Shown in pieces: positions 10,966-37,816 of a DNA stretch of 40,663 nt. The notes under the pieces are model-generated. The model did not search any database and was not told the origin of the DNA. It saw only the letters and a list, made by a program, of their open reading frames with translations. A program made the position numbers and the translations under genes. Position 1 is the stretch's first letter; each line of letters opens with the position of its first letter. The stretch comes from Lactobacillus equicursoris DSM 19284 = JCM 14600 = CIP 110162 (GTDB taxonomy: Bacteria; Bacillota; Bacilli; Lactobacillales; Lactobacillaceae): NCBI RefSeq assembly GCF_001434815.1, contig NZ_AZDU01000015.1, positions 1-40,663 of the forward strand. Direction: 5' to 3'.

Positions 10966-11297
10966 AAGAAAAAATCGCCCTCAAGGAATTGCTTCCTTGA
11001 AGACGATTGTTAGTCGTGGTCCCACTTCATTTCATCAGCTGTCTCACGGCAACTGACCTTACACTGCCGCTGACTAGTCGCCGGAAAGGGCAAAGAAAGC
11101 CAGTTTCCAGGAACAGCCAGGGCAGCCGTGGTAACGCTCGCTAGCGGGAAGGCCTACTTTATTTCGGCCAACCAGTTCTTAGATGTGTTTCGCCAGGCGG
11201 CTTTTGCTCAATCGCACCAACTTGAGCTCTCTGGGAAAAGCCGGACCTGGTTACTCTTCTAATCGATACTTTTCTTAGATTGCTTTAATTTTTAATT
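10966..11297 (-). promoter_or_regulatory. T-box riboswitch, probable histidine specifier (CAC)
   Basis: All on the minus strand. The conserved TGGGACCACG box is at about 11016-11025. The terminator arms lie at 10974-10988 and 10993-11007 with a loop of GCAA and a long T-run. Stem I contains the AGAGAGC bulge and a terminal loop with GGTGCGA, the distal loop signature. The specifier loop has an AAGAGTA 5' side (about 11251-11258) and a 3' side reading CGAAACACATCTAAG. Aligned with the well-known glyQS leader from memory (CGAAAGGCATTC), the specifier takes the place of GGC and is CAC at 11185-11187, a His codon followed by A. It controls the oppA and pepV-like pair. T-box identity is strong; the specifier reading is good but should be folded. 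Confidence 0.88.
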
Positions 11298-23350: not shown

Positions 23351-23367
23351 AGATAAGGTAAATTTCT

Positions 23368-23466
23368 AACCTAAGACGTGGGTGGCGCAAGCCTCAATAA
23401 CCCGCCGAGGCCAGAAGATAATGAAGATTATTAACTCTCCATGTCTTGTTGGCATGGAGTTTTTTA
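23368..23466 (+). promoter_or_regulatory. Ribosomal L10 leader with attenuator
   Basis: The L10-leader pattern CTAAGACGTGGGTGG...AAGCCTCAATAACCCGCCGAGG (23371-23410) matches the kink-turn structure bound by L10-L12 complexes in Firmicutes. A terminator follows: CTCCATG (23437-23443), CATGGAG (23453-23459), then T6. Bound L10 should favour termination, lowering rplJ-rplL expression. Confidence 0.85.
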
Positions 23467-23507
23467 GGCCTTGTAGAATTTTACAAAATTTTATGGAGGT
23501 GAAAATT

Positions 23508-34983: not shown

Positions 34984-36099
34984 TTGGCTAAATTAGGGAA
35001 GAAGATATTGGTGCTGCTGGCTCTGGTGATTTTGTGCCTGGGGATGCTGCCAGCCCACCAGGTCGGCAAGGACCAGGCCAAGGCCGCGGACATGCAGGCT
35101 TTTGTCAAAAAGCTGATGAAGAAGAAGCACATCGCTGGCTCCATCGCCGTGGTTCATAACGCCACCGTGCAAGTTGTCTCATATGGCCGGGCCAAAAAGG
35201 GCTTGAAAAACGGCGCTAAGAACGTGGTCTACCCAGTAGCGTCCTTGCAAAAGCAGGTGACGGCTGCCATGGTCATGCAGCTCATGGCCGAAAAGCAGGG
35301 GTCAAGCAAGTTTTTTAGCCAAGACACCAAGATTTCTCGCTGGTACCCTGGCTTAAGAGGGGCAAGCAAGATCACGGTAGGCAACTTATTGACCCACACC
35401 TCCGGCTTGCAGATTCCAGAAATTGAAGTTGACCGCGGGGTTACATATTCTGAAGCTGGCTCCGTGAACTGGGTCGTTAACCGCCTGAACCAGGCAAGCC
35501 AAGATGCAGTTGGGACTTACCACTACAGCGACGTCAACTATATCTTGCTGGCCGGCATTATTCGAAAAGTAACGGGCAAGTCATATGCTACTAATTTTAA
35601 AAAGCGGATCGTGAACCGGCTGGGCCTGCGTCACACCTTTTTAATAGGAAAGGTGCCGGCCAAGTACCAAGTAGCGGCTTCTTATGACTACCAAAACGGC
35701 AAGAACTACCAAAATCGGCGTTACCTGTCAAAGACCCGCTTGTCGCAGTTGATTGGGGCGGCCCAGCTGATAACGACGCCAAGCGACTATTACGAGTTCG
35801 TGTCAGCCCTTGGGACCGGACAGCTGCTAGCGCCGTCAACCTACCGTTTGATGACTCATTTAAAGAGCAAGAAGACGCGGTATTGCAGTGGCTTTTACAT
35901 CAAGAAGGGCGGCAAGGTTAAGCTGGCTTACGGGGCCTTGGGCGGCGCCCACTATGCTGGCTACTACCAGTTGACCAGCGACAACCAAAATGGGATCGTG
36001 ATGATGATCAACCAGCGTAGTTGCGGCGAAAACAAGCTGAAGGGCATCGGCTACCAAATCTTGCAAAAATTAGAGTTGAATACTTTTTCTCAGACGTAA
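34984..36099 (+). CDS. Secreted serine hydrolase, beta-lactamase/penicillin-binding (class C-like) family
   Basis: A 371-residue protein with a signal-peptide-like N-terminus (LGKKILVLLALVILCLGML), then the serine hydrolase domain. The SxxK motif is SLQK at 87-90, the second motif is YSD at 181-183 (YHYSDVN), HTSG appears at THTSGLQIPE, and a GGAHYAG segment near the end likely stands for the third motif. Such proteins act as D-alanyl-D-alanine peptidases or esterases on the cell wall. The start is doubtful. The good ribosome-binding site AAGGA (34965-34969) fits ATG 34976, but that frame stops after MKRWLN. The long frame opens only from TTG 34984, 14 bases from the site. A one-base shift, or coupled re-initiation, is possible. 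Confidence 0.82.
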   Translation: MAKLGKKILVLLALVILCLGMLPAHQVGKDQAKAADMQAFVKKLMKKKHIAGSIAVVHNATVQVVSYGRAKKGLKNGAKNVVYPVASLQKQVTAAMVMQLMAEKQGSSKFFSQDTKISRWYPGLRGASKITVGNLLTHTSGLQIPEIEVDRGVTYSEAGSVNWVVNRLNQASQDAVGTYHYSDVNYILLAGIIRKVTGKSYATNFKKRIVNRLGLRHTFLIGKVPAKYQVAASYDYQNGKNYQNRRYLSKTRLSQLIGAAQLITTPSDYYEFVSALGTGQLLAPSTYRLMTHLKSKKTRYCSGFYIKKGGKVKLAYGALGGAHYAGYYQLTSDNQNGIVMMINQRSCGENKLKGIGYQILQKLELNTFSQT

Positions 36100-36128
36100 A
36101 AAGGAAGACCTTAGGGTCTTCCTTTTTT
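36098..36128. terminator. Terminator after the serine hydrolase
   Basis: AAAAAGGAAGACC (36098-36110), TTAG, GGTCTTCCTTTTT (36115-36127). Confidence 0.9.
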
Positions 36129-36141
36129 GCATAGTGGTTCA

Positions 36142-36429
36142 ATGGCTTTTTGCTCAAAAAATAGGTCAACTACGGTTGGGTGTGCTCAAAACCTTACTCA
36201 AGTATGGTTGGGTGTGCTCAAAACCTTACTCAAGTATGGTTGGGTGTGCTCAAAACCTTACTCAAGTGCGGCAAAAGCTGCTCAAAAACTTACTCAAGTA
36301 TGGCAAAAGCTGCTCAAAACCTTACTCAAGTATGGAAAATACTGCTCAAAACCTTACTCAACTGTGGTAAATGCTGCTCAAAACCTTACTCAACTATGGT
36401 AAAAGCTGCTCAAAATCTTACTCAATTGG
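36142..36429 (+). repeat. Tandem array of 32-bp repeats (eight units plus one degenerate)
   Basis: Units start at 36174, 36206, 36238, 36270, 36302, 36334, 36366 and 36398, exactly 32 bases apart. A decayed unit occupies 36142-36173. The constant part is TGCTCAAAACCTTACTCAA; the first nine bases vary in blocks (GGTTGGGTG in units 1-3, GGCAAAAGC in units 4-5, GGwAAAwrC-like in 6-8). The AAGTA/TACT pair gives a small dyad (TACT-CA-AGTA). There are no unique spacers, so it is not CRISPR. All three forward frames stay open because 32 is not a multiple of three and the unit lacks stops; I do not take these as genes. Confidence 0.92.
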
Positions 36430-36444
36430 CCCTTGATCGCTTTT

Positions 36445-36841
36445 GGTTGAGTAAGTTTTGGGCCGTCACTTTGCTTACTTGAGTATGTTTTTGTGCACAT
36501 TTTTTCTAAAAAACACCGTGGTTGAGTAAGTTTTGGGTCGTCACCTTGCTTACTTGAGTATGTTTTTGTGAAGCTATTTCTAAAAAAGCACCTTAGTTGA
36601 GTCAACTTTGGGCCACTACTTTGCTTACTTGAGTATGTTTTTGTGCACATTTTTTCTAAAAAATACCTTAGTTGAGTAAGGTTTGGGCCACCCTCTTGCT
36701 TACTTGAGTATGTTTTTGTGAAGCTATTTCTAAAAAAGCACCTTAGTTGAGTCAACTTTGGGCCACCATCTTGCTTACTTGAGTATGTTTTTGTGCAGAT
36801 TTTTTCCAAAAACACCTTAGTTGAGTCAGTTATTGTGCAAT
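36445..36841 (-). repeat. Tandem array of 75-bp repeats in opposite orientation
   Basis: Five units start at 36445, 36520, 36595, 36670 and 36745, followed by a partial one from 36819 (last period 74). Each has TTGAGT near its start and TTGCTTACTTGAGTATGTTTTTGTG in the middle. Two forms alternate: units 1, 3 and 5 have GTGCACATTTTTTCTAAAAAACACC or close, units 2 and 4 have GTGAAGCTATTTCTAAAAAAGCACC. The true unit may therefore be a 150-bp dimer. Read on the minus strand the array carries TTACTCAA words like the 32-bp array. It begins directly at the stop of the minus-strand GH3 gene, in the place of a normal terminator. Confidence 0.92.
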
Positions 36842-37816
36842 TTACCGATAAACAAATTCCCTTAAAGCCTGAAGCCGGTCAAGAGAAGCGTCAATCTGCC
36901 CTTCGCTAACCAATCTATTTTCCATAGCCTGGACCAGGCGTGGCAGGGTGGCCAAGTCGCCGCCTAGCAGGAGGTCGTTGCCAGCTTCTAAAGCCAACAG
37001 TTCAGCCGGTTCATTTTCACTGCCGGCCAGCTTGGCAGCCGCCATGGCTAAGTCGTCGGTTAAAATGACGCCGTTATAGCCAAGATCTTGCCGCAAGTAC
37101 TTGTGCACCTTTTTAGACAAAGAAGCAGGCTGGTCGTCAAAAATGGTCACGGCCAGGTGGGCCACCATGATGGAGGGGACGCCGGCAGCGATCGCCGCCT
37201 TAAAGGGGAGCAGGTCGTTTTCCGCTTCGGCACGGGTTCGGTCATCTCTCGCAAAAGCCGTGTGGGTATCGCCAGCATCTCCGTAGCCAGGGAAGTGCTT
37301 GGCGGTAGAGATCAGGCCCAGGTCTTGGTAAAGCTTGATGAAGGAAGTAGTGGCCTTGCTAGTTTTTTCCAGGCCGCTCTGAAAGGTCCGTCCGTAAATG
37401 AAGCTGGACCGATTTTGGGCAAAGTCGGCGACTGGTGCAAAGTTCCAGTTGAAGCCTAGGTCCTTTAATTCTAGCGCGGTTTCTTTACTCTTTTGCAAAA
37501 AAGCATCCAGTCCTTGCCTTAAAAGTTGGCCTTGGCTCGGATAAAAGTTAGATGAGAGGGCCGACAAGCGGCTGACCAGTCCGCCTTCTTGGTCGATGCC
37601 AATCAACAGCTTGGGGCGGGCTTGCTTGTATACCGCCAGTTCTTGCTTGACTTGTGTTCGGCTTTTTCCTTCCAAGTCTTTGGCAAAAAGGATGATGCCG
37701 CTAGGCTGGTATTTTTGCAAGATTTGCAGATTTTTTTGAAAGTCGCCAAGGCTATCGATGAAAAATAGCTGACTGAGTTTGGATGATAATGAATGATTCA
37801 TATATTTTATTAACAT
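36842..37816 (-). CDS. Glycoside hydrolase family 3, beta-N-acetylhexosaminidase (NagZ-like)
   Basis: A 324-residue GH3 enzyme that removes terminal N-acetylglucosamine from cell-wall fragments or glycans. Motifs: LLIGIDQEGGLVSRL (sugar binding), KHFPGYGDAGDTHTAF with the Asp-His acid/base pair of the NagZ type (usual KHFPGHG), and ILTDDLAM with the nucleophile Asp. It lacks the second GH3 domain, as NagZ proteins do. No signal peptide is visible, so it is probably cytoplasmic. The start is weakly supported: Met 37816 and Met 37801 (MNHSLSSKL) both lack a strong ribosome-binding site. Its end abuts the 75-bp repeat array. It is divergent from the secreted galactanase. Confidence 0.88.
   Translation of the reverse strand: MLIKYMNHSLSSKLSQLFFIDSLGDFQKNLQILQKYQPSGIILFAKDLEGKSRTQVKQELAVYKQARPKLLIGIDQEGGLVSRLSALSSNFYPSQGQLLRQGLDAFLQKSKETALELKDLGFNWNFAPVADFAQNRSSFIYGRTFQSGLEKTSKATTSFIKLYQDLGLISTAKHFPGYGDAGDTHTAFARDDRTRAEAENDLLPFKAAIAAGVPSIMVAHLAVTIFDDQPASLSKKVHKYLRQDLGYNGVILTDDLAMAAAKLAGSENEPAELLALEAGNDLLLGGDLATLPRLVQAMENRLVSEGQIDASLDRLQALREFVYR

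Follow-up and report, generated by a model that had tools for sequence, protein, structure and literature searches.

The array of 32-bp repeats between two convergent genes of Lactobacillus equicursoris DSM 19284 is probably one of two head-to-head arms made of iteron-like sites to which the product of a chromosomal gene, NERD-Rep3, would bind. This protein joins a nuclease-related domain to the winged-helix part of a Rep3 plasmid replication initiator, and the copy of the element described here would be a gene-less derivative. In a few species of Lactobacillus, a module for the start of plasmid replication may have been converted into a repeat element of the chromosome. The argument is built on computed features: (i) the repeats, their quantised spacing and their dispersed copies, (ii) the co-occurrence and adjacency of gene and array, with type-specific motifs, and (iii) the Rep3-like fold, conserved NERD residues and purifying selection of the protein. 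The array lies in a contig of 40,663 nucleotides (NZ_AZDU01000015.1), analysed whole and hereafter termed the window, of a genome (G000) of 2.05 Mb in 182 contigs; G072 is a related MAG. Among the papers listed by literature searches, none deals with these arrays or with a protein that fuses NERD to Rep3.

A two-armed element between convergent genes

The element and its neighbours are arranged as follows (window coordinates):

34984..36099, plus strand: flanking gene of the beta-lactamase/serine hydrolase family (PF00144; Pfam)
36095..36127, plus strand: terminator-like hairpin belonging to the upstream gene and followed by the element after about 20 bp (read in the sequence)
36150..36840, no strand: whole two-armed, head-to-head, gene-less element, 691 bp, with outer ends TTGCTCA... 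and ...TGTGCAA
36151..36425, minus strand: left arm, nine units at 32 bp (one degenerate and eight), the core on the minus strand reading TTGAGTAAGGTTTTGAGCA
36426..36445, no strand: central spacer between the arms, 20 bp
36446..36840, plus strand: right arm, 11 core copies (TTGAGTAAG.., TTGAGTATG.. or TTGAGTCA..) in alternating 32/43-bp steps that form a 75-bp super-unit
36842..37816, minus strand: flanking convergent gene with a glycoside hydrolase family 3 (GH3) N-terminal domain (PF00933; Pfam)

The right arm carries the core on the strand opposite to that of the left arm, and its last step is 42 bp. An earlier note on this DNA had described eight 32-bp units. The units are real; the stretch in question (36142-36429, 288 bases) holds nine of them and is the left arm only, the second arm at 36446-36840 having been overlooked. 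The exact 32-base spacing was read correctly, as the core TGCTCAAAACCTTACTCAA starts at 36183, 36215, 36247, 36279, 36311, 36343, 36375 and 36407, with every step at 32. Six of these eight cores are identical and two have one substitution, while the degenerate ninth unit starts at 36151 and differs from the core at 5 of 19 positions. Tandem Repeats Finder reports the repeat at 36183-36425 (period 32, 7.6 copies, score 302). The variable lead changes in blocks, with boundaries less sharp than had been claimed, and this blockwise variation bears out the suggestion of growth by local duplication.

The array is intergenic and placed between convergent genes as the earlier note had it (PF00144 gene on the plus strand, GH3 gene on the minus strand), and the right end of the element stops one base short of the GH3 stop codon (36842-36844). 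The claim that every frame is open is mistaken: 36142-36429 has one stop in each plus-strand frame, and 10, 8 and 10 stops in the minus-strand frames. Three ORFs run through the arms, and these have no Pfam match. In an Rfam scan of the whole window, no family reaches the gathering score at the array; the scan detects only a T-box leader (10996-11275, minus strand, RF00230, 105 bits) and a ribosomal protein L10 leader (23352-23475, plus strand, RF00557) elsewhere. Searches of phage and plasmid collections with the array DNA were also without a match. The core is, thus, part of no known element in the collections searched and of no ORF with a Pfam match, and the view that it belongs to no known insertion element stands to that extent; that the element is dispersed and two-armed had been missed.

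G072 and G045 have no array at the window site, only a short intergenic stretch with a terminator-like hairpin of different sequence. Five orthologous sites were compared in all: the window against G072 and G045, and four G072 elements (L091, left side only, L092, L093 and L094) against G045. At these five sites, no target-site duplication or clean filled/empty junction was seen, and the whole intergenic stretch differs between genomes. A MITE/DDE transposon origin, suggested by the inverted outer ends, was dropped as the main reading because no target duplication was visible at these sites and the gene found in a relative matches no transposase family. At L093 and its G045 counterpart (L104), the coding flanks are 96-97% identical, whereas the intergenic DNA differs over its full length, including the promoter region; by eye, the G072 version resembles that of locus L053 of G000. 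The right flank of L094 and locus L107 (G045 contig C46) have tandem units of about 106 bp with a lysine-tRNA-like gene (by eye).

Dispersed families and their distribution

Taken together, two DNA searches place the 32-bp family at 20 loci in the window genome. By reading, 15 of the 20 have two arms arranged head to head as in the window, and the remaining five (L033, L035, L038, L048 and L052) are cut by contig ends. Chance is excluded for this family since G000 has 162 core matches at two or fewer mismatches versus none for a reversed control pattern. Across the seven genomes in which the core was counted, matches fall to 37 in G072 and nine in G051 (one control match each), and to three, three, seven and eight in G045, G042, G028 and G062 (controls of one, three, one and one, respectively); units of a sister family make up seven of the eight G062 matches. 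The array DNA was also compared with 61 same-genus genomes, a set that contained G000 but not G072; only G000, G051 and G042 matched, the G042 match being a mere 24 bases (36131-36154) ahead of the repeats. Among named genomes, a two-unit pattern is found only in the MAG 'uncultured Lactobacillus sp. isolate E27__bin119'.

The sister family has a 42-bp period (GCCCCCNANTTGACTCAACC), with 191 matches in G000 (control 0) and 31 in G062. Among 75 same-genus genomes, it is also detected in G045 (two matches), G072 (one) and G029 (one), and is absent from 70, with a single control hit overall. In four G000 loci (L045, L047, L049 and L053), 42-bp-family repeats directly continue 32-bp-family elements at a junction of ...GTGCA|TCCC, forming mixed elements. 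Several loci have the inverted outer ends TTGCACA.../...TGTGCAA. One array is common to G000 (L046) and G051 (L050) at the same site and with 84% identity; thus, at least one insertion is old. This is the one array locus of G051, a genome that is 67% complete and has no NERD-Rep3 gene; G045 has two 42-bp units, likewise without the gene.

At least seven G000 contigs (C104, C119, C126, C127, C140, C142 and C157) end within arrays. The arrays, therefore, account for breakpoints of this draft assembly, and the copy numbers of elements and gene-bearing copies may be too low.

The NERD-Rep3 gene and protein

In G072 (locus L091/L144), a 534-codon gene lies between two array elements, at the same chromosomal site as the gene-less locus L043 of G000 (flanks 84-94% identical). 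Recombination between the two flanking elements of G072 would give the gene-less form. The G072 protein has a nuclease-related NERD domain at residues 86-194 and a Rep3_N domain at 294-419 (Pfam); Rep3 proteins are plasmid initiators of the iteron-binding type. Of eight full-length proteins, all have NERD, seven have Rep3_N and two have Rep3_C above the cut-off, and no other family is detected; in particular, Pfam assigns none of the eight to a transposase family, including the HUH/Y1 tyrosine REP-associated transposases. The residues E90, D129, E142 and K144 (P0001 numbering) are invariant in all eight, and we take these to be the active-site residues of PD-(D/E)XK nucleases. A promoter-like block with an invariant GTANTANNNAGT is found upstream of all eight genes.

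The fold of the protein agrees with this assignment. While a profile search of PDB sequences with NERD-Rep3 returned nothing, the first 37 PDB entries that Foldseek finds for the AlphaFold2 model (mean pLDDT 82.5, pTM 0.68) are plasmid initiators, RepE54 and pi among them (lowest E 5e-8, with target TM values reaching 0.73). The initiators are followed by nuclease-like proteins, Can2 for example, that match weakly (E about 1e-3, TM about 0.2). The plasmid collection has 1334 matching records, none of which covers 80% of the NERD-Rep3 protein, and the 20 matches listed are to the Rep3 half (from residue 294 or 296). Among viral contigs, 65 stretches match the search pattern and none encodes a relative.

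Full-length NERD-Rep3 is confined to three of 75 same-genus genomes: G000 (four genes), G062 (two) and G072 (two). Family-wide (397 genomes) and class-wide (398 genomes) searches detect a full-length protein only in G000, the match in G058 being limited to residues 13-274; these draws cannot have contained G062 or G072, as both would have matched. Some protein match (E 0.001) is found in 20 of the 75 genomes, and in 17 of the 20 it is partial. The NERD frames viewed in nine of these (G053, G048, G043, G030, G007, G058, G014, G068 and G020) have no Rep3-like part by eye, and the sole repeat of period 15 or more beside them has a period of 19. Stand-alone Rep3 frames were viewed in G014 and G036, one with adjoining 22-bp repeats (4.1 copies). 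A different NERD protein of 549-572 residues adjoins an ORF resembling diacylglycerol-kinase-type lipid kinases in several genomes (L111, L112, L114 and L118; by eye).

The dN/dS values of two gene pairs (0.22 for L137/L143 and 0.10 for L141/L142) indicate that the protein is under purifying selection. In the L141/L142 pair, dS is 0.12 for the gene versus 0.45 for the adjoining PTS-like gene, which hints from sequence divergence that the element was exchanged more recently than its neighbour; this is a hint only, because the identity of the PTS-like gene is uneven (77 to 96% per 100 bases).

Association of genes with arrays of their own motif

All eight full-length genes are array-associated. 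Arrays with a period of 31, 32 or 42 bp lie no more than 250 bp away from seven of them. Six of these seven genes are followed by an array that starts about 4-24 bp past the stop codon, and four are preceded by one that ends about 165-240 bp ahead of the start. For the eighth gene (L143, G062 contig C12), the distance to the upstream array is about 1.9 kb, with a transposase-like ORF (by eye) in between. ORFs that flank the loci on one or both sides look metabolic or transport-related (mostly by eye). The C150/C12 arrays are preceded by about 330 bp of well-conserved, largely non-coding DNA with a terminator-like hairpin (L137 1036-1367 and L143 681-1023); at L143, other DNA cuts off the end of the upstream gene ahead of it.

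Motif and protein vary together. Protein pairs of 97% identity (L137/L143 and L141/L142) have a common motif, whereas proteins of 35-51% identity have different motifs that are built alike, over about 20-22 bases, mostly with a TTG or TGG start and an end formed by a G run or GAGCA (core length by eye on the consensus; that of C143 is too variable to fix its end). The specificity is not sharp throughout, as TTGAGT occurs in the motifs of C14, C143 and C150/C12, which are three of the six protein types. The four proteins of G000 are 40-51% identical to the G072 protein that is encoded among 32-bp arrays. The closest cognate gene of the 32-bp family is that of G072 and is missing from G000, despite the 162 units present there. 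The cognate gene may have been lost, a relative may serve in its place, or the pairing of gene and array may be looser than proposed.

A spacing rule of whole helical turns

Core-to-core distances are quantised. In the window and 34 fetched loci (five core kinds, both strands, only distances of 21-60 bp counted), 343 neighbour distances include 135 at 31-33 bp, 207 at 41-43 bp, one at 51 bp and none at 34-40 bp. Thus, 342 of the 343 correspond to three or four helical turns, with the two classes one turn apart. With a looser core and other limits, a few distances are also noted at 29-31, 41, 44 and 51 bp and many at 12 and 20 bp, the latter two summing to 32 inside one unit. In the L041 array, 13 cores follow at exact 33-bp steps, and 11 of these are identical. 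Half a helical turn between two iterons has been reported to abolish cooperative Rep binding (PMC4980987).

Proposed mode of action and alternatives

Binding, cutting, mobility and the route of copying are inferred from the features above. The complete element would consist of the array(s) and the NERD-Rep3 gene. The Rep3 half, the winged-helix part of a plasmid initiator, would bind each core of about 20-22 bp; cores three or four helical turns apart would place neighbouring proteins on one face of the DNA and allow cooperative binding. The two arms could then be brought together and cut or nicked by the NERD half, with repair or replication restart copying the element to new intergenic sites, where arrays would afterwards grow and shrink via local duplication. 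A further and more tentative reading is that the element represents a new class of chromosomal mobile element with no known transposase, in which an initiator joined to NERD multiplies and disperses phased iteron arrays in a REPIN-RAYT way of life; this is possible rather than probable.

The earlier note had left a role in RNA or in DNA structure open; a role as DNA, in the form of protein-binding sites, is better supported than one as RNA. In an RNA role, the transcribed inverted arms would pair to form a long hairpin, which could stop or insulate transcription between genes or shield the 3' ends of mRNAs; we consider this unlikely. The window stretch 36142-36845 does fold strongly as RNA (-248.7 versus -170.2 +/- 5.1 kcal/mol for 20 shuffles, z -15.3), a very strong hairpin that results from the inversion of the arms; the left arm alone reaches only z -2.2. 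The element lies between convergent genes, and at least one gene 3' end faces the array in 14 of 16 loci with ORFs called on both sides (9/9 in G000 and 5/5 in G072). This proportion is, however, little above the expectation for random placement, two loci are divergent by ORF calls (L050 of G051 and L087 of G062), and the upstream gene in the window already has a terminator-like hairpin. The long hairpin is also inconstant: the arms have different motifs in G062 and in L141/L142, are separated by the gene in L140, and run in the same direction on both sides of the gene in L139. RNA pairing, moreover, leaves the 31-33/41-43 rule unexplained.

It is rather unlikely that NERD-Rep3 is a resident DNA-organising or replication-control factor, with the arrays as its chromosomal sites instead of mobile DNA. 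RctB sites in Vibrio cholerae provide a parallel, and the purifying selection on the genes, the 20 loci in G000 and the array common to G000 and G051 are compatible with such a function. A resident function fits poorly with the patchy presence of the full-length gene among congeners, with orthologous sites in relatives that have no array, and with the several protein types per genome, each with its own motif.

A defence in which NERD-Rep3 recognises and cuts the iteron origins of incoming plasmids, while the arrays titrate or regulate the protein, appears improbable. The joining of an initiator-like and a nuclease-related domain in one protein would suit this role, as would the resemblance of the Rep3 half to plasmid initiators noted above. 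Yet, PADLOC has no match to the six NERD-Rep3 proteins scanned, the window array DNA matches no plasmid record, and each gene copy adjoins arrays with its own motif, to which self-recognition is better suited. Plain minisatellite slippage, with proximity to NERD-Rep3 genes as coincidence, is very improbable: near-identical neighbours (e.g., the cores of L041) and the blockwise variation of the window array are as expected from slippage, but it explains neither the core common to 20 loci, the two-armed symmetry, the 31-33/41-43 restriction nor the association with all eight genes.

If the reading of the arrays as sites for NERD-Rep3 is true, the initiator-iteron pair of plasmid replication has given rise to a chromosomal repeat family, with a nuclease-related domain joined on, and to a dispersal route without any known transposase chemistry. 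The six protein types and their own arrays form a set for the study of how Rep3 proteins choose their iterons.

Comparison with known systems

Two classes of repeat DNA resemble the element in form. MITEs are gene-less and dispersed with inverted outer ends, as is the element described here; by contrast, its gene-bearing relative encodes no transposase family and no target-site duplication was seen. CRISPR arrays have regular direct repeats, a likeness that ends at the inter-core stretches, which here repeat in blocks and are not unique spacers; the earlier exclusion of CRISPR is borne out to that extent.

The theta-plasmid origins of the Rep3 (PF01051) type share with the element a direct-repeat core of about 20-22 bp beside a gene for a Rep3 winged-helix fold and steps that equal whole helical turns. 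The protein has Rep3 winged-helix domains (by Pfam and by Foldseek similarity to RepE54 and pi), and phased direct repeats with a core of about 20-22 bp (by eye) occur near all eight genes, in one case across an insertion. The theta origins of lactic acid bacteria are described as having generally three and a half 22-bp iterons (PMC4490491), whereas the period here is 31-33 or 41-43 bp and the arms are inverted. The element further differs in its location on chromosomal contigs among metabolic genes, the fused NERD domain, the many dispersed gene-less units and the presence of arrays both downstream and upstream of the gene. With neighbours that look metabolic or transport-related, and with no plasmid record that covers 80% of the protein, it does not have the features of an autonomous extrachromosomal replicon.

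REPIN/RAYT (TnpA-REP) systems combine dispersed, gene-less, inverted intergenic repeats with a few cognate genes near such repeats, and repeat and protein are reported to co-evolve (PMC3116915, PMC8266576). Many gene-less and few gene-bearing copies with the same repeats are likewise found here, with the gene-bearing copy of the 32-bp family in G072 and not in G000. By contrast, the protein is not an HUH/Y1 transposase and has NERD (8/8) and Rep3_N (7/8) domains, and the units form long phased arrays instead of short hairpins. Because it is not an extrachromosomal replicon and has no HUH transposase, the element is a full member of neither system; rather, by this comparison, it appears to work like an initiator-iteron pair and to disperse like a REPIN-RAYT system.
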